Shown here piece by piece: positions 47,797 to 61,809 of a stretch of DNA of 64,000 bases. The notes beneath the pieces are model-generated. The model did no database searches. It was not told where the DNA came from and saw only the letters and a list, made by a program, of their open reading frames with translations. Numbering within the stretch: the stretch's first letter is position 1; each line of letters opens with the position of its first letter. Origin of the DNA: Sulfuricurvum sp. Its GTDB lineage: Bacteria; Campylobacterota; Campylobacteria; Campylobacterales; Sulfurimonadaceae. The translations under genes and the position numbers were made by a program. The stretch spans positions 1 through 64,000 of the forward strand of contig NZ_JAQUHV010000006.1 in NCBI RefSeq assembly GCF_028681615.1. The letters run 5' to 3'.

Positions 47797-47828
47797 GCTA
47801 TTTCACCGCTATTTACATTCTATATACT
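47797..47828 (+). promoter_or_regulatory. Island promoter 1 (porin 47915)
   Basis: GCTATTT-CACC-GCTATTT-N8-TATACT. One of seven copies of the same arrangement found in this window: two 7-base direct repeats with an 11-bp period, 8 bases before a -10 element. Confidence 0.85.
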
Positions 47829-47914
47829 TTCCGGAAGATTCGAATTGTATTAATAATAACTATACACATAGATATTGTTTTTATAATAAAAATCAATAGT
47901 TATAAGGAGTTGAT

Positions 47915-49189
47915 ATGAAAAAAGCAGTAGGAATCAGCCTAGTTGCAGCAGTATTGCTGGGAGTAAACGCATTTGCGATCGAAAATGTAAAAGTAAACGG
48001 TGACGCAAAACTGTACTACTATACGGATGATAAGAATTCGGGTGATCTTTTTAGTAAAACGAATAGTGCGGCAGATACCGCTCTTCGTCTTGGTGTGACC
48101 GGAGACCTTGCGAAATCTATTTCTTTCGGTGTGACAGGGTATGCGATAAGCACCCTTGGACTTGAAAACAATCTTGTAAGCAAAGCATGGTCAAGCGGCC
48201 ACACCGTTACCAATCCTGCCCGTCCGAATGTTGCTGACGAAGCATGGTTAGGTGAAGCGTGGATTGCCGGAACATATGGTAAAACCACTCTTAAAGCCGG
48301 GCGAATGCTGCTCGATTCCCCGCTTTCATTTAGTGAAACGTGGTCTATTGCTCCGAATACCTATGAGGCTGTTGTTCTTATCAATCAAGACATTCCGGAT
48401 ACAACCGTAGTCGGTGTATATGCAGGACATAGTAATGGTGTAAATTCGGTAGGGTATACAGACGGTTCTCTTCCTACGCCAAATAATACATCAGGTAATG
48501 GACTGGATGGTGTTTTGGGTGACGGCGCTAAATTCGGTGTTCATGGAGCGAATGGAGCGAATGTAGCCGGTATTATCAATAACTCGTTCAAACCGCTCAC
48601 TGCACAAGCATGGTACTGGAATGCTGTTAGCGCTGCGGATGCTTTCTGGCTCCAAGCAGATGTTGATTTCGAAGGTTTAAAATTGGGTGCAGAATATGCA
48701 GAAATTAGCCCAAAAGGCGAATATGCGGGTGTCCATGATTCTCAAGCCTATGCATTGAAAGTAGGGTATGAAGGGATCGAAAATCTAAAACTCTCTGCTG
48801 CCTATTCCGACGTAGATAAAAACAGTGTCTTTAAAGTTGCCAACCTTGCGACCAATAATACCGTTGCCGCACAATCGAAATTGTATACGGAAGCATTTTG
48901 GAACTATGGATATGTTGGGGCTCCTAATGCGAAAACCGTGAATGTAACGGCTGAATATACTGCATCTATTGCGAAATTCGGTGCATATTACACCAATGTC
49001 AATAATGCTTATTTCGCTACTCTCGCTACACCGCGTGTCGGAGTTGATATGCAGGAGATTGCATTGAGTGCTACAAAATCTTTCGGGGCATTGGACACTA
49101 CTGTGGCATACGTCTCTACGGATGCGGATGATCAGAATAACGGTTCACAATCCAATTCTCTTCAAGTCTATTTGACTTTTAACTTCTAA
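47915..49189 (+). CDS. Opr-family outer-membrane porin
   Basis: 424 aa, signal peptide (MKKAVGISLVAAVLLGVNAFA), then beta-barrel strands. EAWIAGTYGKTTLKAGRMLLDSP, then APNTYEAVVL is the signature of Campylobacterota Opr/OprD-like porins, and the end LQVYLTFNF is a typical barrel C-terminus. It is transcribed from a GCTATTT-type promoter, so it belongs to the PQQ alcohol dehydrogenase regulon; I infer uptake of the alcohol, a metal complex or a small acid. Related in family, but not closely, to 49458-50645. Confidence 0.9.
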   Translation: MKKAVGISLVAAVLLGVNAFAIENVKVNGDAKLYYYTDDKNSGDLFSKTNSAADTALRLGVTGDLAKSISFGVTGYAISTLGLENNLVSKAWSSGHTVTNPARPNVADEAWLGEAWIAGTYGKTTLKAGRMLLDSPLSFSETWSIAPNTYEAVVLINQDIPDTTVVGVYAGHSNGVNSVGYTDGSLPTPNNTSGNGLDGVLGDGAKFGVHGANGANVAGIINNSFKPLTAQAWYWNAVSAADAFWLQADVDFEGLKLGAEYAEISPKGEYAGVHDSQAYALKVGYEGIENLKLSAAYSDVDKNSVFKVANLATNNTVAAQSKLYTEAFWNYGYVGAPNAKTVNVTAEYTASIAKFGAYYTNVNNAYFATLATPRVGVDMQEIALSATKSFGALDTTVAYVSTDADDQNNGSQSNSLQVYLTFNF

Positions 49190-49205
49190 TTATCGTTAGA
49201 TAGCT

Positions 49206-49236
49206 TTCATCCTTACGGGGATGAATCCTCCTTTTT
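49206..49236 (+). terminator. Terminator after first porin
   Basis: Perfect 7-bp stem TTCATCC/GGATGAA, then TCCTCCTTTTT. Confidence 0.75.
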
Positions 49237-49300
49237 ATGAAAAGTTTTGAACCTGTAGTGGAGTTTCGTCGACGTCAATAAGGTGATGATAATAAAAAGG

Positions 49301-49340
49301 GGAGAAAGTCCGGATGCCTTCGGGTATCCCGTCTTTCTTC
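49301..49340 (+). ncRNA. Long UUCG-capped hairpin between the porins
   Basis: GGAGAAAG-TCC-GGATGCC-TTCG-GGTATCC-CGT-CTTTCTTC. The inner stem is 7 bp with a TTCG tetraloop and the outer stem 8 bp, with a 3x3 internal loop that itself has one C-G pair. No T tract follows, so it is not a simple terminator. It lies after the first porin's terminator and before the second porin's promoter. It could be a small RNA or part of a read-through mRNA element; the function is unknown. Confidence 0.5.
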
Positions 49341-49391
49341 AGTATCAATGCATGGTAATAAAAAATATACAGCGAGTTCCACCATTAGACG

Positions 49392-49423
49392 GCTATTTCA
49401 GAGCTATTTTCATTCTATATACT
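49392..49423 (+). promoter_or_regulatory. Island promoter 2 (porin 49458)
   Basis: GCTATTT-CAGA-GCTATTT-N8-TATACT, 35 bases before the ATG. From the first repeat through the -10 it is nearly identical to promoter 1 (47797-47828). Confidence 0.85.
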
Positions 49424-49457
49424 ATCTTAAAATATACACCCTGTTGGGAAAATTTAC

Positions 49458-50645
49458 ATGAAAAAAACAGTTGTATTGAGTTTTGCTGCACTAGCGGTAT
49501 TACATGCTTCAAGTACAGATGATGTATTGGAAGATGGAACAATTAGCGGAGAGATCCGAAGCGCATACATTAGTCAAAATAATAAAGTGGATACCGATAC
49601 CTACGGAACCTCAATCGGAGGTATTTTGAAATATGAAACGGCTCCTAGGAATGACATAAAACTCGGTGCAGGAGTATATATGTCCCAAAAACTTCCTTTC
49701 GCAACCGGAGATTTTGATGAGGGAAAAGCAAATCCTGATTTATTCGGTAATCATACCCATTCCTATGCCTATATCGGTGAAGCTTATATGGATTACGCTG
49801 TCGATGGTGTGTCCGTACGTATCGGTCGTCAATTAATCGATACTCCGTTTGCAGAGGAGGAAGATATTAGAATGCATCCCAATACGTTTGAAGCGGCGAT
49901 TGCAACTTATAAAGGGATTGAGGACATGACGTTTGTCGGTGGGTATATTTCACGGTGGGCTGGTTATGACTCCGGAGACGATATCTCAAAATTCAAGAAA
50001 CTGGCTCCAGGAAGTAACGGAGCGATCATGATTGGAATGAGCAACGAAAGCTTGGATGATCTGGAACTGAGCGGATGGTATTATGGAATTGATAAACTGA
50101 GTGATATTTTCTATGGGGATGCGACGTATACTTTAGAATTCGCTGAAGCGGGCAGTCTGGAACTGATTGGGCAATTGGGACGGTTTAATGCCCAAAACAA
50201 CAGCAACGCCGAGGGAAATATTTATGGGATTGGAGCCAATTTGAATATCGGTATTCTGACCCTCGGTGCAGAGTATAACAAAGCTTCAAACCCTTCAGGC
50301 AAACACATCATCAGCGGTTTCGGAAACGGTCCATATGTTGTAGATACCGAAGAAGTGAATCTGGATGATTTCGAGGATGTAAACGTCTATCAGTTCAATG
50401 CAGAGTTGGAAATGGAAGGGTTGGGAACGCTTACCGCCAGCTACTCAAACTTTAAAAGTGCTCCACAACATCTGGAAGTAGACGAAATCAATCTAATTGC
50501 ACTGTATAAGATTACCGACGCGGTTGGAGCGGAAATAAATTACGTTATCGTAAACGATAAAAATAAAAACACTGCCAATAACGGCATAGAGAATTATGAC
50601 GGCGGCTATGACCGCCTTATGATTCGTTTGAAATATACATTTTAA
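49458..50645 (+). CDS. Opr-family outer-membrane porin
   Basis: 395 aa, signal peptide (MKKTVVLSFAALAVLHASS), barrel strands, the family motif AYMDYAVDGVSVRIGRQLID, then MHPNTFEAAIATYKG, and a terminal LMIRLKYTF. Same family as 47915-49189 with a clearly different sequence and a longer acidic loop near VDTEEVNLDDFEDVN. Co-regulated through promoter 2. No TonB-dependent (LutH-like) receptor is present in the window, so the two porins may be the outer-membrane route of the system. Confidence 0.9.
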   Translation: MKKTVVLSFAALAVLHASSTDDVLEDGTISGEIRSAYISQNNKVDTDTYGTSIGGILKYETAPRNDIKLGAGVYMSQKLPFATGDFDEGKANPDLFGNHTHSYAYIGEAYMDYAVDGVSVRIGRQLIDTPFAEEEDIRMHPNTFEAAIATYKGIEDMTFVGGYISRWAGYDSGDDISKFKKLAPGSNGAIMIGMSNESLDDLELSGWYYGIDKLSDIFYGDATYTLEFAEAGSLELIGQLGRFNAQNNSNAEGNIYGIGANLNIGILTLGAEYNKASNPSGKHIISGFGNGPYVVDTEEVNLDDFEDVNVYQFNAELEMEGLGTLTASYSNFKSAPQHLEVDEINLIALYKITDAVGAEINYVIVNDKNKNTANNGIENYDGGYDRLMIRLKYTF

Positions 50646-50665
50646 GTATCTGCCGGAGAAGAACG

Positions 50666-50688
50666 GACAGGCTGTTTTGGCAGTTGTC
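50666..50688. terminator. Stem-loop between convergent porin and SoxYZ-like genes
   Basis: GACAGGCTG and CAGTTGTC pair with one bulge around a TTTTGG loop. It lies between the two convergent stop codons. T tracts are poor, so the call is weak. Confidence 0.35.
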
Positions 50689-50690
50689 GG

Positions 50691-51443
50691 TTACTCTGCG
50701 AATTTTGTCTGAATGTGATACTCGTTTGCGTCCGTATCTTCCATATCGATCGTGTAATTGCCGTTTCCGAAGGATGTATACAGAGTTAAGACCGGATTTT
50801 GGCTGATGGCCGAGGTCATATCCATACTGCCGATCAGCTCTTTGTTGCTATAGAGATTAAGATGTTTGATGTAGAAAGGGGCGGTGCCGAACATCAGACC
50901 GGTTTCCATCGGGTGATAAATAGAGAAGTTGATCGCATAGGAATCGTCTTGGCGTACCGTATGGCTTTTTGATTTCCCCTGAAGAAGGGCAAATTTTTTA
51001 TTGTCTTCGGGAGAAGCCGACGCACATCCGCCTCCCGGGCTTTTGATGTTTTTGCTTCCGATATGCCAGAGCCCTTTATCGTCTTGGACAAGGACTCGGA
51101 TCGGTGTCTCCTGTGCGACACGGATGTTAAATGAAAAGATCGGTTTGAGTCGTAATACGTCGACATCCATGATTTCGGGAATATAATTAAGATCGGCAAA
51201 TACAACCATTCGCTTCGGATTTTTGATTTTGGAAGCATCGATAGAGACCGGGACTTGGGAAGGGTTATCGGCAAACTTCGGGACAGTGATCGTGATGTTT
51301 TCATCATCAAAAAAATAGGTTTGGGTATGAAGCGTATCATGGACAAGGTCGTCAAAGGTGGGCGAATAAATCGGATTCTGTGCTAGTGTGCTTGCGCTCA
51401 GCAGAAGAAAAAGCAGGGCATATTTACGGAAGAGAGTAGCCAT
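50691..51443 (-). CDS. Quinoprotein dehydrogenase-associated SoxYZ-like carrier
   Basis: 250 aa, signal peptide (to about 21). A SoxY-like domain (about 25-150) ends in SPGGGCASAS, where Cys140 stands for the swinging-arm cysteine of SoxY (GGCGG), followed by a SoxZ-like beta-sandwich (160-250; MFGTAPFYIKHLNLYSNKE). SoxY and SoxZ are fused into one chain. Such fused carriers occur next to PQQ dehydrogenases, where their cargo is unknown. Third gene of the minus operon with PedF-like cytochrome and XoxJ. The metallohydrolase often found with this carrier is not in the window. Confidence 0.85.
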   Translation of the reverse strand: MATLFRKYALLFLLLSASTLAQNPIYSPTFDDLVHDTLHTQTYFFDDENITITVPKFADNPSQVPVSIDASKIKNPKRMVVFADLNYIPEIMDVDVLRLKPIFSFNIRVAQETPIRVLVQDDKGLWHIGSKNIKSPGGGCASASPEDNKKFALLQGKSKSHTVRQDDSYAINFSIYHPMETGLMFGTAPFYIKHLNLYSNKELIGSMDMTSAISQNPVLTLYTSFGNGNYTIDMEDTDANEYHIQTKFAE

Positions 51444-51453
51444 TTTGTTTCCT

Positions 51454-52323
51454 TTAAGGGCTGATCGAGATGGGTATATTGTATGTCACATGATACTGAT
51501 CGAATATACTCTTCAACGTGTTGTCTTGATAGAGTTGTGAAATTACACCGTCAATGTGGTTGCTTAATTCGTGAGCATCCATCCGAACAGCGATACCGAG
51601 ATCCCATTTGGATTTTATCCCTAATATTTCCTTGGTCATAAAATATTTGTCTTGATTTTTTTCATAGTCAAGCAAAAATTCAAGTTGTGATTGTAATCCG
51701 GCAATAGCATCGATTTTTCCGTCTTGAAAATCTTTGACGGCATCTTGGAATCTGGCATAGCGTTTGACATTTTTGCGCAATAATCCTCCGTTATGCATCG
51801 AGAGGTATTTGTCAGGAAGTGTGTCTAATTCTACACCGACGGTGTTGTAGGCAAATATTCCCATCGTATTGATCGACGGTATTGTCTCTTTATGAGTTAC
51901 GATAACCCATCTTTCCGAATGATAAGGTGATTTGATGACCACCATATCGGTTCTGAGCGCACCCGTACTGACATCGGTTTCACGCATGTAATTGTAGTCA
52001 TAGGGAATTCTCATCATGACATCTGCGCGGGTTTTATGGACAGGATTTCCTTTCCATACGACATTTCTAAGATCACCGTCCATATCCTCGCCCGCATCGG
52101 TGAAGTACCATTTGGGTTTGACATTGAGAGATTCGGCGATACGTTTGCCGATCTCAATATCGATTCCCTTGGCTTCACCGTTGCTGTCTATATACGAATA
52201 CGGGGGAAAATCATTGTATACGGCAATGACGATCTCTCCAGCGGCTTGTATATCCTCAATACTCCGTGCATGAGAGCAAAGAGAGAGGAAAAAGATACTG
52301 ATGATGATCGTTAGAAACTTCAT
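51454..52323 (-). CDS. xoxJ: XoxJ/MoxJ-type periplasmic binding protein
   Basis: 289 aa with signal peptide (to about 19). Solute-binding fold of the amino-acid type: IVIAVYNDFPPYSYIDSNGE, KGIDIEIGKRIAESLNV, and the quinoprotein-associated ADVMMRIPYDYNYMRE. These proteins accompany lanthanide methanol/ethanol dehydrogenases and are thought to help activate the enzyme rather than to import a nutrient; no cognate permease is next to it. Two bases downstream of the cytochrome gene. Confidence 0.85.
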   Translation of the reverse strand: MKFLTIIISIFFLSLCSHARSIEDIQAAGEIVIAVYNDFPPYSYIDSNGEAKGIDIEIGKRIAESLNVKPKWYFTDAGEDMDGDLRNVVWKGNPVHKTRADVMMRIPYDYNYMRETDVSTGALRTDMVVIKSPYHSERWVIVTHKETIPSINTMGIFAYNTVGVELDTLPDKYLSMHNGGLLRKNVKRYARFQDAVKDFQDGKIDAIAGLQSQLEFLLDYEKNQDKYFMTKEILGIKSKWDLGIAVRMDAHELSNHIDGVISQLYQDNTLKSIFDQYHVTYNIPISISP

Positions 52324-52325
52324 TG

Positions 52326-52739
52326 TTAATGGTCGATTTTAACAGAAAATAAATATGAGCGGATTGCCCACATACCCTCTTGGCTGATGACTCCTTCAAA
52401 TGGAGGCATATACACATTACCGTTACGTACCGCACCTCCGCGGATACGCTCCATAAACCATGCGTCTCCTTCTACTCCCGGATCAAGATAACGAAGATCC
52501 GGGGCAACACCGCCTGATACTACTTCCAATCCGTGACAACGGGCACAGTTTTCAGCATACGCATGTTTTCCGATCTCAATAGCTGTCTCATTTCCGACAT
52601 ACGGATTGGACTCCAACCAAGCTTTTCCCAGCGGTGCCAGCCCTTTGGTATCTACCGGCTGAGGTGTGACGTTTCCGTGACTAAATACTAGTGTTGCCGA
52701 TAGCAATGCTACCGCTCCAAGTGTATGCAATTTCTTCAT
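52326..52739 (-). CDS. pedF: Cytochrome c-550 PedF-like
   Basis: 137 aa from ATG 52739 (AGGAG ribosome site just upstream; TTG 52745 is the alternative). Signal peptide (to about 20), then SHGNVTPQPVDTKGLAPLG, haem site CARCH at 65-69, GGVAPDLRYLD and a probable axial Met111 (VYMPPF). The pattern is that of PedF, the electron acceptor of PQQ-dependent ethanol dehydrogenases. First gene of a minus-strand operon with xoxJ and the SoxYZ-like gene, under promoter 3. It is the only cytochrome c in the island. Confidence 0.9.
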   Translation of the reverse strand: MKKLHTLGAVALLSATLVFSHGNVTPQPVDTKGLAPLGKAWLESNPYVGNETAIEIGKHAYAENCARCHGLEVVSGGVAPDLRYLDPGVEGDAWFMERIRGGAVRNGNVYMPPFEGVISQEGMWAIRSYLFSVKIDH

Positions 52740-52771
52740 ACTCAACTCCTTTTTTCGTTTGTGATTTGGAA

Positions 52772-52803
52772 ATTATAGAGTATGAAAATAGCCTGATAAT
52801 AGC
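52772..52803 (-). promoter_or_regulatory. Island promoter 3 (pedF-xoxJ-SoxYZ operon)
   Basis: On the minus strand: GCTATTA-TCAG-GCTATTT-N8-TATAAT. Divergent from promoter 4, which starts 21 bases away. Confidence 0.85.
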
Positions 52804-52824
52804 GGTTAAAAGGAAATTTTTAAC

Positions 52825-52856
52825 GCTATTTTCAAGCTATATATGTGTATTAGAAT
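52825..52856 (+). promoter_or_regulatory. Island promoter 4 (ABC operon 52894-55709)
   Basis: GCTATTT-TCAA-GCTATAT-N8-TAGAAT. The -10 lies downstream of the ATG at 52843, which therefore cannot be the start; transcription should begin near 52863. Confidence 0.8.
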
Positions 52857-52893
52857 ACATCGGAATATGAGTTTAAATCAGGAGAATTTATCG

Positions 52894-53865
52894 ATGAAAA
52901 TCTTTGTAGCATTATTCGTTTTTCTTACATTATTATACGGAAGCAGCAATCAGCTGAATGTTGGAGTTTTGGCATACGGAACGGTCAATTGGGAATTGAT
53001 GACGATAAAATCACTGGAACTGGATAAAAAATACGGATTTGACCTTCAAATTAAAGAATTGGCATCCAAAGATGGTGTTGCAGTCGCTTTTCAAGCCGAA
53101 AGCGTTGATGTCATCGTCAACGATTGGGTCTGGGTCAACCGACAAAATTATCCTCATTTTTTGCTCTATTTCTATCCGTATTCTACAGGAACCGGAGGAA
53201 TTTATACCAATAATTCCCGTTATCGTACTCTTGGTGATTTAAAAGGGAAAAAATTGGGTGTCGCCGGAGGACCGATGGATAAAAGCTGGTTACTCTACAG
53301 AGCGTATGCGCAACAGAAACTGGGGATTGATCTCTCAAGCTATGCAGAGATTGTATTTGCCGCACCGCCGATTCTGAATGCTAAATTATCGGATGGTAGT
53401 TTGGATGCGGTACTCAATTTCTGGCACTATAACGTATTGCTGGATGAAAAAGGGATGACCCCCATTTCGTCTGTCCGGGGAGTTTTAGGAAGTTTTGGTA
53501 TTAACAATCAAGATATACCTTTTACAGGATGGGTATTCAAACGATCGTTTGCGGCAGAAAACAAAAAGACGATCAACGCTTTTTTACAAGCATCACTGGA
53601 AGCGAATGCGATACTCAAACAAAATGATGCGGCATGGAATGCGTTACGGCCTTTCATGCACGTCAAAGACGATGCGGCTTTTGAAGCGTTAAAAAAAGGG
53701 TATCGCGAGGGAATCCCGGAAAAGTTTACCTCTGAAGAGATCAAAGGGATTGAACAGGTATATGCACTCTTGGAAAAAACCGGCGGGAAAAGTCTCGTAG
53801 GAGAATCCAAAAAATTTGATAAAACGATGTTTTGGCCCTATAAACCTAACTCGGCAGGGCGATAA
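52894..53865 (+). CDS. NitT/TauT-like ABC substrate-binding protein
   Basis: 323 aa from ATG 52894, after AGGAG at 52880-52884. The frame opens at 52843, but that codon is upstream of the predicted transcription start. Signal peptide (to about 17), then a NMT1/THI5-like fold: LNVGVLAYGTVNWELMTIKS, VDVIVNDWVWVNR, LGDLKGKKLGVAGGPMDK. In this family the protein delivers sulfonates, nitrate, thiamine precursors or similar compounds to a permease. The ligand here is unknown; co-regulation with the PQQ enzyme suggests a cofactor, metal complex or alcohol-derived acid. Confidence 0.85.
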   Translation: MKIFVALFVFLTLLYGSSNQLNVGVLAYGTVNWELMTIKSLELDKKYGFDLQIKELASKDGVAVAFQAESVDVIVNDWVWVNRQNYPHFLLYFYPYSTGTGGIYTNNSRYRTLGDLKGKKLGVAGGPMDKSWLLYRAYAQQKLGIDLSSYAEIVFAAPPILNAKLSDGSLDAVLNFWHYNVLLDEKGMTPISSVRGVLGSFGINNQDIPFTGWVFKRSFAAENKKTINAFLQASLEANAILKQNDAAWNALRPFMHVKDDAAFEALKKGYREGIPEKFTSEEIKGIEQVYALLEKTGGKSLVGESKKFDKTMFWPYKPNSAGR

Positions 53866-53867
53866 CG

Positions 53868-54608
53868 ATGAACACTCTTTTGTATCTGCGTATAGGGTCT
53901 GTTTTTTTCCTGATTGCTCTTTGGCAGATAACGGCATTGCTGGCTGATTCTTCTATGTTTCCGGCGCCATTAGCCGTCTTAAACAGCCTGATCGGGCATA
54001 TTTCAAACGGGGAACTTCTGCACCATTTGGGTATTACTTTATATCGTGTCACAATGATCTTTCTTATCGCCATGCCTGTCGGAATAGCCTTCGGTCTGCT
54101 GATGGGAAATTTCAAAAAAATCGATGCGGCTTTGGATACGCTCCTCGTGCTCGGACTGAATATGCCGGCATTGGTTGTGATTATGCTCTGCTATATCTGG
54201 TTTGGGTTAAGCGATGTTGCAGCGATTTTGGCCGTTGTGATTAATAAAGTTCCGATGGTGATCGTCACTATACGAGAAGGGGTGAAAGCGATTGATAAAA
54301 AATTGCTGGAGGTCGCCTACGTCTATAAAGTATCACGTTACCGATTGCTGTTCACCTTTTATATCCCGCAACTTTACCCGTATATCATAGCAAGTGCCCG
54401 AAACGGTCTCTCACTGATCTGGAAAATTGTGTTGGTTGTGGAACTGTTGGGCAGAAGTGACGGAATCGGATTTCAGCTCTCCATGTTTTTTCAGTTTTTT
54501 GATATCACATCGATTCTGGCATATTCATTTTCCTTCATCGTTATCATCATCGGTATCGAAAATTTTATTTTCCGACCGATTGAAGTCCGAATAGCGAAAT
54601 GGAGATAA
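53868..54608 (+). CDS. ABC transporter permease (NitT/TauT type)
   Basis: 246 aa with about six membrane helices and the BPD-type EAA loop (LLEVAYVYKVSRYRLLFTFYIPQLYPYI, of which EVAYVYK..LFTFYIPQL is the coupling region). Two bases after the binding protein gene and one before the ATPase gene. Inner-membrane pore of the importer. Confidence 0.88.
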   Translation: MNTLLYLRIGSVFFLIALWQITALLADSSMFPAPLAVLNSLIGHISNGELLHHLGITLYRVTMIFLIAMPVGIAFGLLMGNFKKIDAALDTLLVLGLNMPALVVIMLCYIWFGLSDVAAILAVVINKVPMVIVTIREGVKAIDKKLLEVAYVYKVSRYRLLFTFYIPQLYPYIIASARNGLSLIWKIVLVVELLGRSDGIGFQLSMFFQFFDITSILAYSFSFIVIIIGIENFIFRPIEVRIAKWR

Positions 54609-54609
54609 G

Positions 54610-55314
54610 ATGCTGAGTATTGATATTCAAAGCAAAGAATACAGTGGGAAAAAGATCCTTCAGAATCTACGCTTCAGACTTGAAGAGGGGACTTTTCTCT
54701 CCATAATCGGCCCTTCAGGATGCGGTAAAACGACACTCCTCAAACTTATTTCATCATTGGATAGTGATTTTGAAGGTTCGATCGAGACGGGTGCAGACTC
54801 AATCGGAATGATGTTTCAAGAACCCAGACTTTTACCGTGGCTTACCGTCAGAGAAAACATTGCCGTCGTAGACAAAATCGGTGTCCCTGATGAGATCCAA
54901 AAACTTTTGACGATGGTGGGATTGGAGTATACGATGGATATGTATCCTAAAAATCTCTCAGGTGGGATGGCGCGAAGAGTATCACTCGTGCGAGCTTTTA
55001 TCAACAGACCCAAGCTTATTTTGCTGGATGAACCGTTTGTCTCCTTAGATAAACCGACGTCACTGGCACTTCAAAATGATTTGATGCTCTTTTGCAAGAG
55101 TTTCAATCCTGCCGTGATATTGGTCACACATGATCTGGACGAAGCCATTTCCCTTTCGCAAAAAATCCTCTTTTTGGGGGGTGAAGTCACCGAAGAAGTG
55201 ATGACTCACGTGAATGATCATTACGGTTTTGAGATACTTGATCCATCGCAGGTCCAAATGATAAAAGAGAATATTCTATCTATGTATCCCACAATATTAG
55301 AAGGTAAATCATGA
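54610..55314 (+). CDS. ABC transporter ATP-binding protein (NitT/TauT type)
   Basis: 234 aa. Walker A GPSGCGKTTLLK, Q-loop MMFQEPRLLPW, signature LSGGMARRVSLVRAF, Walker B LILLDEPFVSLD and the H-loop VTHDLDEA. The PRLLPW Q-loop is typical of the nitrate/taurine subgroup. Overlaps the next gene by 4 bases. Confidence 0.92.
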   Translation: MLSIDIQSKEYSGKKILQNLRFRLEEGTFLSIIGPSGCGKTTLLKLISSLDSDFEGSIETGADSIGMMFQEPRLLPWLTVRENIAVVDKIGVPDEIQKLLTMVGLEYTMDMYPKNLSGGMARRVSLVRAFINRPKLILLDEPFVSLDKPTSLALQNDLMLFCKSFNPAVILVTHDLDEAISLSQKILFLGGEVTEEVMTHVNDHYGFEILDPSQVQMIKENILSMYPTILEGKS

Positions 55315-55709
55315 AAAAAACACTCCTATTCCTATCGATGCTTTCGCTCATTCATGCGGAAGAGCTTAAAATGCAGATTTATAAACCGGTAACAAGTTTA
55401 TGTCCTGCTTCATGGGTATCCGATGTGGAACTGACAATCGCAAAACCGGAGGTGACGTCTTTGACGGATGTGAAAAGTCTCAAAAGCAGTCTGGGCATTC
55501 CACGAGAACTGTATTCTTGTAATACCTCTATTCTCGGGGAGTATATTTTTGAGGGGAATGTCCCGACTGAGGCTATTAAAAAGTTTATGAATGAGAAACC
55601 TGCGGGTGCGGTCGGGCTGAGTCTTCCGGCAAGCCAAAATGATGAAGCGGTAAAAAAAGTCTTTATCATGTATGGTGACAAAACGTATAAACTATACGGA
55701 ACGTATTAA
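55311..55709 (+). CDS. DUF411-like periplasmic protein with degenerate metal motif
   Basis: 132 aa, signal peptide (to about 16). The body follows the DUF411 pattern (a family with a CGCC motif linked to copper and metal handling): SLKSSLGIPRELYSCNTSILG, then EYIFEGNVPTEAIKKFM and AVGLSLPA match LGVP..L.SCHTA, Y.IEGHVP and GLAVPGMP. The N-terminal CxCC motif is reduced to SLCPASW, leaving Cys31, and SCHT is SCNT (Cys70). The normal copper site is therefore lost and another ligand or role is likely. Last gene of the ABC operon; its stop overlaps that of the convergent DUF302 gene by 4 bases. Confidence 0.75.
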   Translation: MKKTLLFLSMLSLIHAEELKMQIYKPVTSLCPASWVSDVELTIAKPEVTSLTDVKSLKSSLGIPRELYSCNTSILGEYIFEGNVPTEAIKKFMNEKPAGAVGLSLPASQNDEAVKKVFIMYGDKTYKLYGTY

Positions 55710-56173
55710 TCCAAAGCGGATGTGATGATCTTTTCGATTATCGCATCCATACTTTTTGGATCCACCTGATCATTCAGTTTCGGTGCTTTTAGAAAAGACA
55801 CCGTCACCTCAGAGTTCTCTTTCACCTGAAAAACAACTAACTTCAATGGACAATACAGAAGCGTATCGATGCTTTTATTCATTAGTTGATAGCTGACTGA
55901 CGGTTTGCAAAAGCCAATGCTGATTCCATTATGTAGTTTTGATTGTTGATCTAAATTTTTCGATACCGCTTCTAAGGCTTTTGCGATATTGATTTCGTAT
56001 ACGATGTTAAATCCATTGACTTGAAGCTCATTGCCAATACGTAATTGCAGCTCTTCAAACGATATATCGCTGACTCGATAGGAAATAAATTCAGGCGTCT
56101 CGATGCGAATAGTTTCTGCATTGAGCACTCCTGCGAAGACGAGACAGAAGAGAACGATTATTTTCGTTTGCAT
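55706..56173 (-). CDS. DUF302 periplasmic protein
   Basis: 155 aa, signal peptide (to about 19). The DUF302 core is recognisable: GFNIVYEINIAKALEAV, then SIGFCKPSVSYQLMNKS, TLLYCPLKLVVFQ. These proteins are periplasmic or membrane bound and of unknown function. It overlaps the upstream binding-protein gene by 16 bases, so both are made from promoter 5. Confidence 0.8.
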   Translation of the reverse strand: MQTKIIVLFCLVFAGVLNAETIRIETPEFISYRVSDISFEELQLRIGNELQVNGFNIVYEINIAKALEAVSKNLDQQSKLHNGISIGFCKPSVSYQLMNKSIDTLLYCPLKLVVFQVKENSEVTVSFLKAPKLNDQVDPKSMDAIIEKIITSALD

Positions 56174-57321
56174 TTCATCTCAGATGCTGCGATACCCAGT
56201 GTATCTAAATCGGTTACCGGATCCAGGAACCCTACCTGTGGCGAGGTTGAGATCAGAGCATTAGGCTGAACCAGAGAAATCGGCATTCTGAGTTGCCCGT
56301 TGTAGCTTCGGTAAGAGAGTTTTCGTCCCATATACGCGGCCAGTTCAAATTCGTTGGAACGGATATAGGCAAGATTCGTTTTGAGGTCACTCGTATTCGT
56401 ATGCATTATGGAGGTTACAATCGTCCGTACGGCTACCCAAGCGGCAAAATCTTCAGACTCCATACCGCGCGATGCATATTTTTTAAAGCGATCTTGCATC
56501 TGTGCCGCACCCCACTGCTCGATACTCTTGTGCCATTCTACGGGAGTGAGACCTTGGGTTCCGGCTACAGGACGCGGGAGCCATGAATTGAAATAGACAA
56601 CTTCGCCAAAATCCCCGTAATAATCGGCAGTGAGAATCACATCATAATCTTCACCTTGCGTAAATACCGGCAGTTCATCTTCTGCTTTTCTGCGAATATC
56701 GCTGTTGTTGTCCCACACTTTCTCTTGTACGATTTTGGCACCGAATTTTTTGGCAGCTCTTTTAATTGCATAGACGATATTTTTGTCTTTAGCTGTTTTT
56801 CCTTCGATTAAAAATATTTTTTTGAAATTTCGTTTCACCAAAAATTGCATTAGCCCGTCATACAGCATCGTATCATCGGCAATGGTATGTAAAAGGTTCG
56901 GATTGCAGTAGAACATTCGCAGGCGAGGATTGCTCAACCCGGCGTTGATCATCAAAACCTTTTGGCTTTTCGGGTTAGCGAGAAGTTTCACGAAAAGGGG
57001 ATACTGAACGTTTAAAATAACATACGCTCCCCCTTGGTCCACATACTGTTCAAAAGCTTTTAGCAGAACTGTTTCATCTCCCGAAACTTCCGTTTGCAAT
57101 GCATAGTGCTGATTCATGAATCGGGCTGTTTTTTCGCTGTCTTCTACGGCTATCTTGGCCCCTTCCAAGCCCAAATTATCCGGTTTTTCCATAACGTTTG
57201 AGAGAACCGGAGGGTGTTTTACCTTTTGGTCTAAATAAAGTATTTTTACTGATAGATCTGAAGCACTGAGCGAAATGGTACAGAGGAGTGTTGTTATCAG
57301 TATTCGACATAGAGTTTGCAT
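56158..57321 (-). CDS. pedA1: PQQ-system ABC substrate-binding protein (PedA1-like)
   Basis: 387 aa, signal peptide (to about 20). Periplasmic branched-chain-amino-acid-type binding fold: LGLEGAKIAVEDSEKTARF, VLMINAGLSNPRLR, GEDYDVILTADYYGDFGEVV, and SWLPRPVAGTQGLTP. It matches the family found with PQQ-dependent alcohol dehydrogenase systems (PedA1 of Pseudomonas putida, LutA-like), whose transporter has been linked to lanthanide uptake. Divergent from its presumed partners pedA2BC, with a shared operator region. Confidence 0.82.
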   Translation of the reverse strand: MQTLCRILITTLLCTISLSASDLSVKILYLDQKVKHPPVLSNVMEKPDNLGLEGAKIAVEDSEKTARFMNQHYALQTEVSGDETVLLKAFEQYVDQGGAYVILNVQYPLFVKLLANPKSQKVLMINAGLSNPRLRMFYCNPNLLHTIADDTMLYDGLMQFLVKRNFKKIFLIEGKTAKDKNIVYAIKRAAKKFGAKIVQEKVWDNNSDIRRKAEDELPVFTQGEDYDVILTADYYGDFGEVVYFNSWLPRPVAGTQGLTPVEWHKSIEQWGAAQMQDRFKKYASRGMESEDFAAWVAVRTIVTSIMHTNTSDLKTNLAYIRSNEFELAAYMGRKLSYRSYNGQLRMPISLVQPNALISTSPQVGFLDPVTDLDTLGIAASEMKCKRK

Positions 57322-57351
57322 CGTATCCCTCGTATAAATGGTGTCCTGACA

Positions 57352-57384
57352 ATTATAGGAAAAGTAAATAGCGTGTATATAGCT
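57352..57384 (-). promoter_or_regulatory. Island promoter 5 (pedA1-like/DUF302)
   Basis: On the minus strand: GCTATAT-ACAC-GCTATTT-N9-TATAAT. The spacing to the -10 is 9 instead of 8. Its upstream half site shares a GC dinucleotide with the first half site of promoter 6. Confidence 0.8.
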
Positions 57385-57414
57385 ATTTTCGAGCTATTTA
57401 CTTTTTGTATAATT
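57383..57414 (+). promoter_or_regulatory. Island promoter 6 (pedA2BC)
   Basis: GCTATTT-TCGA-GCTATTT-N8-TATAAT, back to back with promoter 5. Confidence 0.85.
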
Positions 57415-57441
57415 TTTTCAGCTCACCCATAAGGGATTTTT

Positions 57442-58404
57442 ATGAAACGAACAGCACTTTCTGTGATGTTATTGCTTGGCACTTTGGTCCAAGCCGATAC
57501 GGTTTTTATATCGAATGAAAAAGACAATACTATTTCTGTTATTGACTCAAAAACCCAAAAAATCATTGATACGATACGTGTAGGGCAGAGACCTCGAGGT
57601 ATCGTCCTGGATAAGTCCAACACACAACTGTATGTATGTGCCAGTGATGACGATACGGTACAAATTCTGGATTTAAAAAGTAAGAAGGTCATCGCGAACC
57701 TTCCATCCGGAGAAGATCCGGAACAGTTTGCCTTGCATCCTGAGGGTAAGGAGCTTTATATCGCCAATGAAAACAATGCAATGGTCACAGTTGTCGATAC
57801 GCAAAAAAGAACGGTGTTAAAACAGATTCAAGTCGGATTGGAGCCTGAAGGTATGGCCGTGAGCCCTGATGGCAAACTCGCTATCGCAACAACGGAAACC
57901 TCCAATTTTCTCCACTGGATCGATACTAAAACCAAAAAAATCATTCACACAACGCTCGTCGACCAAAGACCGCGGTATATACAGTTCAGTAAAAACGGCG
58001 ACAAAGTTTGGGCTTCTTCAGAGATAGGGGGGACGGTTATGGTCGTCGATACCGCTACAAAAAAAAGTATTGCCAGAATAGGCTTTGCCATTCCGGGCAT
58101 TTTTAAAGATCAGATTCAGCCCGTCGGTATCCGACTTACCAGTGATGGCAAATACGCTTTTGTCGCCCTTGGGCCTGCAAACCATGTCGCCATTATTGAT
58201 ACCAAAACCTATAAAGTCATTAAATATCTCTTGGTCGGCAAACGCGTTTGGCAAATGGCCTTTGCGGAGAATGAACGTCAACTCTATACGACCAATGGGA
58301 TTAGCGGGGATGTCTCCGTCATTGATGTAAATGACCTGAAAGTACTTAAAAGTATCAAAGTGGGCCGTTATCCTTGGGGTGTAGCGGTTATTCCGACAAA
58401 TTAA
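57442..58404 (+). CDS. pedA2: PQQ-system YVTN beta-propeller protein (PedA2-like)
   Basis: 320 aa, signal peptide (to about 18). Seven or so YVTN-type repeats: NEKDNTISVIDSKTQKIID, VGQRPRGIVLDKSNTQLYV, VGLEPEGMAVSPDGK and VGRYPWGVAVIPTN at the end. It belongs to the beta-propeller family encoded with the ABC system of PQQ alcohol dehydrogenases. Periplasmic; it may bind the substrate or the metal complex. One base before the ATPase gene. Confidence 0.88.
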   Translation: MKRTALSVMLLLGTLVQADTVFISNEKDNTISVIDSKTQKIIDTIRVGQRPRGIVLDKSNTQLYVCASDDDTVQILDLKSKKVIANLPSGEDPEQFALHPEGKELYIANENNAMVTVVDTQKRTVLKQIQVGLEPEGMAVSPDGKLAIATTETSNFLHWIDTKTKKIIHTTLVDQRPRYIQFSKNGDKVWASSEIGGTVMVVDTATKKSIARIGFAIPGIFKDQIQPVGIRLTSDGKYAFVALGPANHVAIIDTKTYKVIKYLLVGKRVWQMAFAENERQLYTTNGISGDVSVIDVNDLKVLKSIKVGRYPWGVAVIPTN

Positions 58405-58405
58405 C

Positions 58406-59140
58406 ATGAAAACAATTTTAGAGCTCGAAAACGTTTCGCACAAATACGATAAAGCAATGGTACTTGACAATGTTTCCTTTTCCATCGAAGAAGCCTCATT
58501 CTTTGTCCTTTTGGGTCTGAACGGTGCCGGTAAATCAACCATATTTTCTCTTCTAACCCGACTTTTGAGCCTTCAATCCGGATCGATAAAGATCAATGGA
58601 TATTCAATACAAAATTACACTAAAGCACTTAAAGATATCGGTATCGTTTTTCAGGAACCGACACTGGATCTGGATTTGACCGTGCGACAGAATCTTTATT
58701 ATTACGGCGCATTGAAAGGGTTGAGTTTTAAAGAGACGATTGACACCATCAAAGAAGAGCTGACGAATCTGGAACTGGATGAAAAATTGGACACAAAGGT
58801 CCAAAAATTAAACGGCGGGCACAGACGACGGATTGAAATCGTACGCTCACTCATCAATAAGCCAAAACTGCTTTTATTGGATGAAGCAACGGTGGGGCTG
58901 GATTTAAAAAGCCGCTTTGATATTCTGGATTATTTACGCCGAAAAGTTCAAAAGGGCGATATCTCCGTTCTATGGATTACCCATCTGTTTGATGAGGTGC
59001 AAAAGAGCGACAGTCTCGCGATCATCCACAAAGGGGAAATCCTCGCAACAGGAACGGCAGAGACGATTATCGCCGAGCACCAGCAAACGGATTTGACTCA
59101 AACATTCAGATATTTGACAAGGGAGTATCCCGATGCGTAA
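58406..59140 (+). CDS. pedB: PQQ-system ABC ATPase (PedB-like)
   Basis: 244 aa. Walker A GLNGAGKSTIF, Q-loop IVFQEPTLDLDLTV, a non-standard signature LNGGHRRRIEIVRS (Asn in place of Ser of LSGG), Walker B LLLLDEATVGLD and the H-loop WITHLFDE. Asn occurs here in other ABC-2 ATPases, so it is likely active. Overlaps the permease by 8 bases. Confidence 0.88.
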   Translation: MKTILELENVSHKYDKAMVLDNVSFSIEEASFFVLLGLNGAGKSTIFSLLTRLLSLQSGSIKINGYSIQNYTKALKDIGIVFQEPTLDLDLTVRQNLYYYGALKGLSFKETIDTIKEELTNLELDEKLDTKVQKLNGGHRRRIEIVRSLINKPKLLLLDEATVGLDLKSRFDILDYLRRKVQKGDISVLWITHLFDEVQKSDSLAIIHKGEILATGTAETIIAEHQQTDLTQTFRYLTREYPDA

Positions 59141-59918
59141 ATATGTATATTGTGCCAAAGGGATCATTTACAAAGAGCTATTACGCTTTTTAAAAGAAAA
59201 AAGCCGATTTTTTTCGGCACTTGTTCGACCTTTGTTATGGCTTTTTATCTTTTCGGCCGGTTTTACTTCTGCACTCGGTTTGGCAATTACCCCTCCCTAT
59301 GAATCTTACATAACGTATGAAACGTATATCGTTCCGGGTCTGGTAGGGATGATCTTGCTTTTCAATGGAATGCAAAGCTCTCTCACCATGATTATTGATA
59401 AAGAGATGGGAAGTATGAAAATATTACTGACGTCTTATATAAATCGGAATTTTTTGCTGTTTTGTAAAATGTTCGCTACGGCTATCGTCTCCACAATACA
59501 GGCAGTGACTTTTTTGATCGTCGCTTATTTGTATGGAGTGGAGTTAAGTGTCGCCGGTATTTTGCTTGCGATACCGGTTATTTTATTTACATCGATTATC
59601 CTCAATGCATTCGCTCTCTTTATATCATCCGTGATAAAACAACTGGAAAATTTTGCGGCTATCATGAACTTTGTTATTTTCCCGATGTTCTTTTTGAGCT
59701 CTGCACTTTATCCATTATGGAAGATAAAAGACTCTTCACTTTTCTTATACACCGTGTGTACATTTAACCCTTTTACGTATATTGTTGAATCCATCCGCTT
59801 TACACTCTATTTAAAATTCGATCCATCGGCCTTTTATATTATATTTTTCTATTTTATTGTGGCGTTGAGCCTCGCATTTATGGGGTATAAGTCAAAAAAG
59901 ATTTTGAAAAAAAGTTGA
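59133..59918 (+). CDS. pedC: PQQ-system ABC-2 type permease (PedC-like)
   Basis: 261 aa with six membrane helices and the ABC-2 pattern FSRFFSALVRPLLWLFIFSAG-like start, IVPGLVGMILLFNGM, and FVIFPMFFLSSALYPLW. It matches PedC of the PQQ-dependent alcohol dehydrogenase systems. ABC-2 permeases usually export; the Pseudomonas system is nevertheless linked to lanthanide uptake efficiency, so the direction is open. Confidence 0.86.
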   Translation: MRKYVYCAKGIIYKELLRFLKEKSRFFSALVRPLLWLFIFSAGFTSALGLAITPPYESYITYETYIVPGLVGMILLFNGMQSSLTMIIDKEMGSMKILLTSYINRNFLLFCKMFATAIVSTIQAVTFLIVAYLYGVELSVAGILLAIPVILFTSIILNAFALFISSVIKQLENFAAIMNFVIFPMFFLSSALYPLWKIKDSSLFLYTVCTFNPFTYIVESIRFTLYLKFDPSAFYIIFFYFIVALSLAFMGYKSKKILKKS

Positions 59919-59929
59919 AATTTTACATC

Positions 59930-59961
59930 GCTAAATTCAGGCTATTTTTCTTATGTATACT
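59930..59961 (+). promoter_or_regulatory. Island promoter 7 (dehydrogenase-pqqABCDE)
   Basis: GCTAAAT-TCAG-GCTATTT-N8-TATACT, 12 bases after the pedC stop. It gives the dehydrogenase and pqq genes their own start inside the plus-strand run. Confidence 0.85.
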
Positions 59962-60018: not shown

Positions 60019-61809
60019 ATGACAAAGAGTAAAATGCTAACTTCAAAGATAGCAGTGACACTTGCTGCCTTTCTTATTGGTTGTGCTGCTCAAGGCACAG
60101 GTCTTGCGAATAAAGGTGGGGTGAAAGCTTCATTTGAACCGGTAACATATAATGATATTCTCAACGATGATAAAACTGTAGGGGATGTTGTAACGTACGG
60201 TTTAGGACAAAAGGGACAACGTTACTCAACGTTGAAACAAATCAATAAAAAAAGCATTAAAGATCTTGTTCCGGTATGGAATTTCAGCTTCGGCGGTGAA
60301 AAAATGCGCGGGCAGGAGTCTCAACCGTTGGTTAAAGACGGTGTTATGTATGTGACGGGATCGTATTCGCGTTTATACGCTCTGGATATCGCAACGGGAC
60401 GGGAAATCTGGAATTACGAAGCAAAACTTCCGGATAATATTTTGCCGTGCTGTGACGTTATCAACAGAGGGGCGGCATTGATCGACAACCTCGTTATTTT
60501 CGGTACGCTTGACGCTAAACTTGTGGCACTTGATCGAGCTACAGGAAAAGTAGTATGGAAAAAAACCATTGCAGATTATAAAGACGGCTATTCATTTACG
60601 GCAGCACCGTTGATCGTTAAAGGTCTTGTTGTAACCGGTGTATCGGGTGGGGAATTCGGTATTGTCGGTAAAGTTGAAGCCCGTGATCCAAAAACCGGAG
60701 AGATTGTGTGGAGCAGACCAACGGTTGAAGGACACATGGGATACCTTAACGGTAAAGAAAATGGTATCAGCGGAACCTTAAACGCAACTTGGGAAGGCGA
60801 TCAGTGGCAACACGGCGGTGCCGCACCATGGAACGGCGTAACATACGATCCTGACACGGATCTTATCTATGTACCGACAGGAAATCCATCTCCGTGGAAT
60901 TCTCATGAACGTGCCGGAAACAACCTGTATTCTGCGTGCAGAATGGCAATCAACCCTGATACCGGTAAAATCGTCTGGTATTACCAAACCACTCCGAATG
61001 ACGGATGGGATTTTGACGGTATGTCAGAACTTGTATTGTTTGACTACAAAGATGCTTCCGGAAAAACAGTCAAAGCCGGTGCAACTGCCGACAAAAACGG
61101 TTTCTTCTACGTTCTCAACCGTGAAAACGGTAAATTCATCAGTGCTTCTCCATTTGTTGATGGCATTACATGGGCAAAAGGGATTGATAAAGACGGGAAA
61201 CCGATCGTAAATCCTGAAAACCGTCCAGGTGAACCTGTAAACGGCGAAAAAGGAAAAACGGTCTTTACCGTTCCGTCATTCCTAGGCGGTAAAAACTGGA
61301 ATCCGATGGCGTACTCTCAACGTACAGGACTTTTCTATGTCCCTGCGAACGAATGGGGTATGGATATGTGGAATCAACCGGTTACTTACAAAAAAGGTGC
61401 CGCATATATGGGTGCCGGTTTCACGATCAAACCTGTACATGAAGATCATATTGGTGCACTCAAAGCGATCGATCCTAAAACCGGAAAAATCAAATGGAAA
61501 CATGAAAATGTTGCACCATTATGGGGTGGAGTACTCGCAACTGCGGGCGGTGTCGTCTTTACCGGTACACCGGAGGGTGAACTTCTCGGTCTCGATGACG
61601 AAACAGGTAAAGTGCTTTACTCATTCCAAGTGGGTTCAGGAATCGTCGGGTCACCGATCACTTGGGAACAAGACGGCGAACAATACGTTGCTGTAGTATC
61701 TGGATGGGGCGGAGCCGTACCATTGTGGGGTGGAGAAGTTGCGAAATCAATCAAACACATTTCACAAGGCGGAATGGTTCACGTCTTCAAATTACATAAA
61801 AATAAATAA
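60019..61809 (+). CDS. exaF: Lanthanide-type PQQ-dependent alcohol dehydrogenase (lipoprotein)
   Basis: 596 aa eight-bladed quinoprotein. The PQQ pocket has the vicinal disulfide Cys144-Cys145 (LPCCDV). Metal ligands are Glu212 (SGGEFGIVG) and Asn289 (TGNPSPWN); the catalytic base is Asp331 in GWDFDG. Asp333, two residues on, is the extra Asp that marks lanthanide-dependent enzymes (XoxF, ExaF, PedH); calcium enzymes have Ala, Ser or Thr there. The PedF/PedABC context favours an ExaF/PedH-type ethanol or broad-alcohol enzyme, though XoxF-like methanol use cannot be excluded. The N-terminus ends in AFLIGCAAQ, a lipobox with lipid Cys22, unusual for a family that is normally soluble in the periplasm. 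AGGAG ribosome site at 60009-60013. Confidence 0.92.

Follow-up and report, generated by a model that had tools for sequence, protein, structure and literature searches.

What controls PQQ-dependent alcohol oxidation in this Sulfuricurvum genome? The question is raised by an island of genes around a PQQ alcohol dehydrogenase (ADH), whose promoters carry a short direct repeat in the window (the whole stretch of 64,000 nucleotides analysed here). A sequence-only reading had proposed that these promoters form one regulon under an OmpR/PhoB-type activator, which reads the 11-bp repeat at the place of the -35 element. Every comparative test that we ran supported this proposal.

Repeat architecture of the island promoters

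Seven sites with one common architecture had been reported, and all were found in the window sequence. They are listed with the island genes; in the text, a site is designated by the first base of its first half-site.

47797..47828, + strand: predicted operator GCTATTT-CACC-GCTATTT, N8, -10 TATACT; porin A promoter; conserved in genomes G051, G074, G106 and G128
47915..49189, + strand: porin A (Porin_4/OprD-like)
49392..49423, + strand: predicted operator GCTATTT-CAGA-GCTATTT, N8, -10 TATACT; porin B promoter; conserved in G051, G070, G074 and G106
49458..50645, + strand: porin B (OprD/Opr-like)
50691..52745, - strand: SoxYZ-like carrier, MoxJ-like binding protein, PedF cytochrome c550
52772..52803, - strand: predicted operator GCTATTA-TCAG-GCTATTT, N8, -10 TATAAT; promoter of the cytochrome c550 (PedF), MoxJ-like and SoxYZ-like genes
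52825..52856, + strand: predicted operator GCTATTT-TCAA-GCTATAT, N8, -10 TAGAAT; promoter of the SsuA/NMT1-like ABC transporter operon
52894..55709, + strand: SsuA/NMT1-like binding protein, permease, ATPase, small protein
55706..57321, - strand: small secreted protein and PQQ-associated ABC substrate-binding protein (TIGR03863, above cut-off)
57352..57383, - strand: predicted operator GCTATAT-ACAC-GCTATTT, N8, -10 TATAAT; promoter of the PQQ-associated substrate-binding protein (TIGR03863)
57382..57413, + strand: predicted operator GCTATTT-TCGA-GCTATTT, N8, -10 TATAAT; promoter of the YVTN beta-propeller and PedC-type ABC genes
57442..59918, + strand: PQQ-associated beta-propeller (TIGR03866), ABC ATPase (TIGR03864), PedC-type permease (TIGR03861)
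59930..59961, + strand: predicted operator GCTAAAT-TCAG-GCTATTT, N8, -10 TATACT; promoter of the PQQ alcohol dehydrogenase, presumably pqqB onward
60019..61809, + strand: PQQ alcohol dehydrogenase (TIGR03075)
61952..63930, + strand: pqqB, pqqC, PqqD-like ORF (named by reading the translations)

Several details of the sequence-only reading required revision. The positions 47797, 49392, 52825 and 59930 on the + strand were right, whereas 57383 (+) becomes 57382. At 52772 (-) and 57352 (-) it is the far end of the -10 that was given, the first half-sites starting at 52803 and 57383. The proposed GCTATTT-N4-GCTATTT is exact at only three of the seven sites (47797, 49392 and 57382); a single mismatch occurs at 52803 (-), 52825 and 57383 (-), and 59930 (GCTAAAT) departs from it at two positions. 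GCTAWWT-N4-GCTAWWT is the better consensus. The distance to the -10, given as 8 bases in six cases and 9 in one, is 8 at all seven. The -10 fits the proposed TATAMT at six sites (TATAAT or TATACT) but not at 52825 (TAGAAT).

The window contains three exact 18-mers and six with at most one mismatch; 200 dinucleotide shuffles gave means of 0 and 0.04, with maxima of 0 and 1. When half-site pairs were scanned at spacings of 7-30, enrichment was observed only at 11 (five on the + strand, two on the - strand), and every other spacing gave at most two. The statement that the window holds no further pair stands up to one mismatch but not at two, where GATATTTTTGGGCAATTT at 39087 is the sole additional match away from the seven promoters. 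A conserved -35 element is absent at the predicted operator promoters, and the N8 gap to the -10 is constant in 39 sites. Because sites were partly picked by the GCTA pattern, the independent support in the base-frequency table comes only from the outer half-site, N8 and -10 positions.

The repeat was said to serve every transcription unit of the island, which is true for the units inside the window. The facing operators 57352..57383 (-) and 57382..57413 (+) overlap by 2 bp. A mechanical ORF start at 52843 falls within the 52825 operator, and the first gene behind it likely starts at ATG 52894. The genes at 57442..59918 are predicted to encode a PedA1A2BC-like transporter; the ABC ATPase scored 300.6 against TIGR03864 (cut-off 302.25). 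The nearest solved structure to the ADH is a quinoprotein ethanol dehydrogenase (6zcw), with whose identical motif WDFDG aligns. The second metal-site Asp (D-x-D) is thereby present, and the predicted metal-site motif suggests a PedH/ExaF-type lanthanide alcohol dehydrogenase. Transcription from the ADH promoter appears to extend into pqqB and the genes after it, and beyond the window the operon continues with pqqE, a leucyl-aminopeptidase-like gene, a FIST kinase and a response regulator.

Sites in the genome and across Campylobacterota

The 2.66-Mb genome was scanned for GCTAWWT-N4-GCTAWWT-N8-TANNNT with one mismatch allowed, which gave nine matches against one for the reversed pattern. Two sites were thereby added to those of the window.

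C6:73,424-73,455: site before a molybdenum aldehyde oxidoreductase
C1:115,360: site before an ExaC-like aldehyde dehydrogenase

Each of the nine sites belongs to genes for oxidising alcohols or aldehydes. The sequence-only reading had named a motif common at unrelated promoters as a refutation, and the scan found no site at any such promoter. The idea of one regulon is supported, but seven sites were too few: the regulon is larger and reaches other genera. At three mismatches the scan is at background (15 matches against 18 for the control); it was not used for targets and does not allow weaker sites to be named. Both G070 and G106 conserve a site that lies before a flavoprotein-soxYZ operon at C3:146,815, but it has no -10 at N8.

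The ADH is present in only 5 of 200 family genomes, each with 8-10 motif matches, and the regulator gene at the end of the island operon occurs at no less than 95% identity in all four family ADH genomes with a readable region. G051 has seven sites, but its sequence beyond the ADH is masked with N and not readable for the regulator, and we therefore discarded the regulator's absence there as counterevidence. G128 and G078 carry sites, and neither the ADH nor the island regulator was seen in their draft assemblies. In G074, the gene that one site faces lies past the contig end. An ADH search of a plasmid collection returned Proteobacteria matches only.

Across the class, the FIST kinase was found in 10/10 readable ADH genomes versus 44/386 others (Fisher 1e-9, relatedness ignored). 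In Campylobacterota the FIST kinase/regulator pair is found repeatedly, in most cases opposite exaC-DUF779 and separated from it by GCTA repeats. Such repeats adjoin the pair at 30 of the 33 loci having upstream sequence, the three without being L176, L209 and L210; all 36 loci in the scan together hold 85 repeats versus 8 in shuffles. Among family genomes, exaC is preceded by the repeat in nine of nine with the pair and in none of five without it (Fisher 5e-4), although one of these five (G178) offers only 135 bp upstream. PQQ islands of another family carried the repeat in all eight examined (40 repeats versus 1.8 expected), at orthologous promoters although the gene order changed. Of 23 OmpR-family regulators in this genome, 21 remain when the island regulator and its 59% identical paralogue are set aside, and their loci contained only two stray GCTA pairs. 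The 11-bp repeats thus follow the regulator across genomes.

A candidate kinase/regulator pair

The regulator had been left unidentified; a candidate is now found in the pair at C6:66,587-69,147, 2.6 kb beyond the window end.

C6:66587-68491: FIST-domain histidine kinase, soluble, with an N-terminal FIST sensor domain
C6:68488-69147: OmpR/PhoB-family response regulator

The regulator has a receiver domain (PF00072, 86.6 bits, cut-off 30.2) and a C-terminal winged-helix Trans_reg_C domain (PF00486, 36.1 bits, cut-off 26.2). Its phosphoacceptor D51 and K101 are invariant in 25 relatives, and the recognition helix DNATIRAExNRxK is nearly invariant across the clade. The predicted fold aligns over its full length (209-214 residues) with the PmrA-DNA and KdpE-DNA complexes (Z about 21), with a large rmsd from domain orientation. 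It is neither a PhoB/PhoR equivalog (TIGR02154, 86 bits versus a cut-off of 296.2) nor a LuxR-type regulator such as PedR2 or AgmR, the domain found being Trans_reg_C, not GerE. The kinase contains FIST_N (PF08495, 128 bits, cut-off 23.2), FIST_C (PF10442, 77.1 bits, cut-off 28.5) and HATPase_c (46 bits, cut-off 26.4); HisKA scored 21.3 bits, under the cut-off of 26.9, and the H-box HETNTPL is present. Its FIST part matches NosP weakly (NF041558, 68.2 bits versus 450), and the kinase may respond to NO or haem. The repeat was not found before the kinase gene, the pair's own promoter, and so no autoregulation is visible. Two other OmpR-family regulators in the window were rejected: that at 36,695-37,357, beside pseudopilin genes, has no adjoining GCTA repeat of this type, and that at 7,195-7,827 has a single nearby off-type pair (GCTAACG/GCTAATG).

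In our view, this pair probably (roughly 0.86) drives one alcohol/aldehyde-oxidation regulon, with the repeats as its operators. Sequence comparison establishes the operator, its geometry, the genome-wide target set and the tie to the pair; we infer direct binding, activation over repression, phosphotransfer, the signal and any lanthanide response. The soluble kinase (FIST_N, FIST_C, HisKA, HATPase) would sense a signal in the cytoplasm, the likeliest being an alcohol, an aldehyde or a metabolic consequence of either, and phosphorylate Asp51 of the regulator. Two regulator molecules would then bind in a head-to-tail arrangement, each on its own GCTAWWT half-site, the 11-bp period being about one helical turn. 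With the second half-site ending 8 bp before the -10, the dimer would cover the -35 place and recruit sigma-70 polymerase as PhoB does. The targets switched on would be the two porins, the PedA1A2BC-type transporter, the PedF cytochrome, the PedH-like PQQ alcohol dehydrogenase with the PQQ synthesis genes, the molybdenum aldehyde oxidoreductase with its maturation factors, and the ExaC-like aldehyde dehydrogenase.

The promoters might instead answer metal rather than alcohol, through a lanthanide switch equivalent to PedS2/PedR2. The PedH-like ADH with its WDFDG motif and the PedA1A2BC-like transporter in the regulon are in keeping with such a switch, which we nevertheless regard as unlikely: PedR2 is LuxR-type (PMC6115532) and the island regulator is OmpR-type, no second ADH to switch to was seen in this genome, and the pair adjoins exaC in genomes without the ADH, which argues for an alcohol or aldehyde signal. 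Nor does the regulon require a lanthanide signal: among the pair's targets, an aldehyde dehydrogenase is conserved best.

The operators could also be read by a paralogue, which would make the island part of an acetate regulon.

C11:35437-36093: acetate-linked paralogue regulator, 59% identical
C11:35437-37310: paralogue system, with a membrane kinase lacking FIST; a porin and an ActP acetate symporter lie alongside

The paralogue is widespread in the family and shares with the island regulator its clade, a near-identical recognition helix and the 11-bp operator geometry, here before its own porin; in other members of the family, GCTATTT often forms its second half-site. In Sulfuricurvum (this genome, G096, G088 and G118), however, its half-sites are GCTACGT, not GCTAWWT, many paralogue-bearing genomes lack clustered GCTAWWT sites, and the repeat at exaC tracks the FIST pair, all of which makes this explanation very improbable. 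At 59% identity, the paralogue might cross-bind.

Equally improbable is that the regulator acts as a repressor, which would block the -35 region until alcohol or aldehyde appears. Repressors too can sit at an operator overlapping the -35 position, but the constant gap to the -10 without a conserved -35 is the pattern of PhoB-type activators, and activation from sites that overlap the -35 has been argued for PceP, whose geometry is the same (PMC7755780). That the sites are AT-rich promoter-like repeats without a common regulator, spread by region duplication, would suit their closeness in one AT-rich island; short of every match being chance, both the genome scan and the class scan refute this, since unlinked sites occur on other contigs and in other families and the flanks of orthologous sites have only 57-65% identity where half-sites and -10 elements keep 88-96%.

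Relation to known systems and significance

The 11-bp repeat does stand in the -35 place as proposed, but this architecture is not unprecedented. PceP/PceS (TCS2) controls the tetrachloroethene respiration regulon of Sulfurospirillum, and PceP binds CTATW repeats of 11-bp period over the -35, as shown by gel shift, with eight CREs in one gene region (PMC7755780). PceP and the island regulator are alike in being OmpR-family proteins of Campylobacterota with 11-bp repeats overlapping the -35 (PMC7755780). In G417, which carries a reductive-dehalogenase-like gene, N8 and TATCAT follow repeats that end in GCTATAA, a spacing as in the island. The likely PceP of G417, taken as such by its position beside the CTATA repeat and not by accession, is 24-30% identical to the island regulator and the paralogue and falls on a separate starred branch; with its different recognition helix, we rejected orthology to the island regulator. 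PceS is a membrane kinase with seven transmembrane helices and the signal PCE (PMC7755780), whereas the island kinase is soluble. The E. coli Pho box differs in its half-site (CTGTCAT), its phosphate signal and the membrane kinase PhoR (PMC4415409). By analogy, the island regulator probably works like PhoB or PceP, and it belongs to a different response-regulator clade.

In the available parts of the work on Pseudomonas ped/exa (PMC6115532, PMC12997753), PedS2/PedR2, AgmR and NosP-NahK likewise regulate or adjoin PQQ alcohol dehydrogenases, and the cluster also has an ABC transporter, a cytochrome and a porin. There, NosP is a protein of its own, encoded next to a soluble hybrid kinase, whereas FIST is part of the island kinase; PedR2 and AgmR are LuxR-type, and those parts describe no 11-bp repeat regulon. 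No described system of this sort was found among the open-access papers searched, where absence is weak evidence, nor any paper there on the control of PQQ/lanthanide-type alcohol oxidation in sulfur-oxidising Campylobacterota.

On the present sequence comparisons, a putative regulator, operator and target set can now be assigned to PQQ/lanthanide-type alcohol oxidation in Campylobacterota. To our knowledge, the ligands of FIST domains are mostly unknown; a FIST sensor kinase now stands beside a defined output, aldehyde/alcohol oxidation, and its ligand thus becomes searchable by a simple reporter. The GCTACGT and GCTAWWT regulators offer a ready system for how paralogues separate DNA specificities. 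We lean towards a wider reading, in which FIST kinases with one OmpR-type clade form a class-wide Campylobacterota system, FIST senses alcohol or aldehyde, and the GCTAWWTTCAG operator spread with acquired PQQ/lanthanide islands. If so, the operator, as iterated GCTAWWTTCAG units, would have multiplied as the islands for PQQ/lanthanide alcohol oxidation came in, and one pair would control the NAD-, molybdenum- and PQQ-dependent steps of a single pathway.

Operators in the window and the genome

The sequence-only reading proposed a regulon of seven promoters under an OmpR/PhoB-type activator in the PQQ alcohol dehydrogenase (ADH) island. All seven sites are present in the sequence and shuffling rules out chance: 18-mers with at most one mismatch number 6 in the window versus 0.04 expected from 200 dinucleotide shuffles of it, and no half-site spacing other than 11 bp is enriched. 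The repeats are not due to chance, and the earlier interpretation is largely right. In exact placement, the second half-site lies 8 bases from the -10 element in all seven operators, including the single one to which 9 bases had been assigned. The proposed half-site, GCTATTT, is found exactly twice in three of the seven sites. Because the others deviate from it at one or two of three outer bases, GCTAWWT is a better description.

Operators of the genome under study
47797, plus strand: window operator
49392, plus strand: window operator
52803, minus strand: window operator
52825, plus strand: window operator
57383, minus strand: window operator
57382, plus strand: window operator
59930, plus strand: window operator
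C6:73,424-73,455: upstream of [2Fe-2S] and molybdenum subunits of the aldehyde-oxidoreductase type, with XdhC- and MobA-like maturation genes
C1:115,360: upstream of a 498-residue aldehyde dehydrogenase and a small protein
C3:146815-146844 (L018 3816-3845): tenth, weaker candidate with an exact GCTATTT-N4-GCTATTT, upstream of a flavoprotein-soxYZ-Rieske-type operon

The window targets comprise two porins, a PedF-type cytochrome c550, MoxJ-like and SoxYZ-like proteins, an SsuA-like ABC operon, a PedA1A2BC-like set (PQQ-associated binding protein, beta-propeller, ATPase and PedC-type permease), and the ADH with pqq genes. The mechanically called first ORF of the SsuA-like operon (52843-53865) begins within the operator/-10 region; its true start is likely the ATG at 52894, with a signal peptide. 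Identical operators in G078 (L121 1-305) and G074 (L129 1-228) point toward an off-contig gene downstream of the SoxYZ-like gene. A gene resembling leucyl aminopeptidase (L016 4915-6477) separates pqqE from the FIST kinase; also found near other-family islands, it is a candidate for PqqA processing. The ADH is nearest to 6zcw, a quinoprotein ethanol dehydrogenase known as PedH of P. putida, and both contain a WDFDG motif. The D-x-D within this motif is the signature of lanthanide-type alcohol dehydrogenases, and the island ADH is a putative enzyme of this type.

In the 2.66 Mb draft genome, in which the window spans G000:C6:1-64000, the strict pattern GCTATTT-N4-GCTATTT-N8-TATA (up to two mismatches) gave 9 matches versus 2 for the reversed control, and the class consensus GCTAWWT-N4-GCTAWWT-N8-TANNNT (one mismatch) gave nine versus one. 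The latter nine are the seven window sites and those at C6:73,424-73,455 and C1:115,360. The C1 aldehyde dehydrogenase scores 829 bits against the acetaldehyde dehydrogenase ExaC model (cut-off 900), and the small protein after it is presumably of the type usually called DUF779. Thus, a scan that might have found the motif at unrelated promoters placed all strong sites at alcohol or aldehyde oxidation genes. The C3 candidate, which lacks a -10 element at the standard distance, is kept in two other Sulfuricurvum genomes and may connect alcohol oxidation to sulfur oxidation.

The FIST kinase and its response regulator

The genome has 23 OmpR-family regulator loci. The one in the island is paired with a FIST-domain kinase, 3' of pqqE and the aminopeptidase-like gene; a second pair is its paralogue.

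Kinase/regulator pairs
C6:66,587-68,491: FIST kinase, 634 residues; FIST_N, FIST_C and HATPase domains, H-box
C6:68,488-69,147: response regulator, 219 residues; receiver and Trans_reg_C domains
C11:33979-37310 (L111): paralogous pair; regulator at C11:35437 (59% identity), membrane-type kinase without FIST

The predicted fold of the response regulator aligns over its full length with the KdpE-DNA and PmrA-DNA complexes. Relatives that reach at least 95% identity to it come from Sulfuricurvum MAGs, which places the genome in Sulfuricurvum. Five comparative lines tie the motif to this regulator. First, five of the family's 200 genomes have the ADH, and these contain 8-10 motif matches each versus 0-3 for the reversed pattern; most other family genomes have 0-3, with G156 as an outlier (seven scattered two-mismatch matches). 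The regulator occurs at 95-100% identity in four of the five, and in the fifth (G051) Ns mask the sequence that follows the ADH. Second, the FIST kinase, matched at a loose cut-off in 54 of 397 class genomes (19 genera), is found in 10/10 class ADH genomes with a readable region versus 44/386 others (p = 1e-9, relatedness ignored). Third, full-length pairs typically lie opposite an exaC-DUF779 operon with one to four 11-bp GCTA units between them (e.g., GCTATATTCACGCTATATTCAAGCTAAATTCAGGCTATATTTCTCATGTAAGAT in L196); of the 33 loci for which upstream sequence exists, 30 have GCTA repeats adjoining the pair, and all 36 scanned pair loci together hold 85 repeats versus 8 in shuffles. An IorA-like gene, likewise of the aldehyde-oxidoreductase type, replaces exaC in three genomes of G417's genus. 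Fourth, in a natural deletion, the repeat upstream of exaC is present in 9/9 family genomes with the pair and 0/5 without it (p = 5e-4). Fifth, eight PQQ islands in another family (f7, Arcobacteraceae judging from tree neighbours with named records) have 40 repeats versus 1.8 expected, at PedF, SBP6, beta-propeller and ADH promoters; their proteins are mostly 45-80% identical, the gene order is rearranged and the consensus is shifted to GCTAAAYTCAGGCTATAA. These comparisons tie the regulon to a specific regulator, the OmpR-type partner of the FIST kinase.

The number of GCTA units differs among promoters, from two to six; the longest array found has six in tandem in a single promoter (L236 5799-5860, G527).

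Operator geometry and related regulators

In orthologous promoters, the outer half-site bases (88%) and the -10 element (96%) are more conserved than the flanks (57-65%). In all 39 aligned sites, the -10 stands at the same distance from the repeat. Two regulator molecules bound head to tail would occupy the -35 position, like PhoB at the Pho box, which consists of two 11-nucleotide units (PMC4415409). PceP of Sulfurospirillum offers the most direct precedent; it binds CTATA units that have an 11-bp period and overlap the -35 (PMC7755780). The likely PceP in G417 is 24-30% identical to the island regulator and located on a separate tree branch; therefore, the island system appears to work like PceP and PhoB but is neither. 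The likely pce promoter in G417 (L218 17135-17190) contains three CTATA units and GCTATAA-N8-TATCAT, with the N8 spacing of the island, an instance of half-site sharing between distant OmpR-type regulators of the phylum.

The paralogous pair adjoins a porin and an ActP acetate symporter. Its operator, GCTACGTTCTTGCTACGT followed by N8 and CATAAT, has the geometry of the island's with the half-site GCTACGT, two bases different. The recognition helices of both regulators are nearly identical, which fits the GCTA core common to both half-sites; they form a natural specificity pair. The island clade is placed in the regulator tree with L193 of f7, and not with the FIST regulator found in a different Sulfuricurvum (G118, L123). 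This placement suggests a transfer of the island, or of its regulator, from one family to another. A contig shared with L181 (Sulfurimonas sp. NORP87) carries a clade regulator and kinase with an exact repeat upstream of a TAXI-type TRAP transporter (L118 5269-9223); uptake of organic solutes may be a further process under the clade's control.

Possible signal and biological meaning

The conserved targets, exaC, the molybdenum aldehyde oxidoreductase and the PQQ-ADH, argue for an alcohol or aldehyde, or for something that follows from its oxidation, as the signal, which FIST would sense in the cytoplasm. The system may also respond to lanthanides, although such a response is not required. NO is another possible signal, because NosP-family FIST proteins are NO sensors and the ped cluster of Pseudomonas encodes one of them (PMC12997753), but the island kinase falls far under the NosP model cut-off. 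The genomic comparisons suggest that in Campylobacterota a FIST kinase and an OmpR-type regulator control the oxidation of alcohols and aldehydes by PQQ-, Mo- and NAD-dependent enzymes via 11-bp GCTA repeats.
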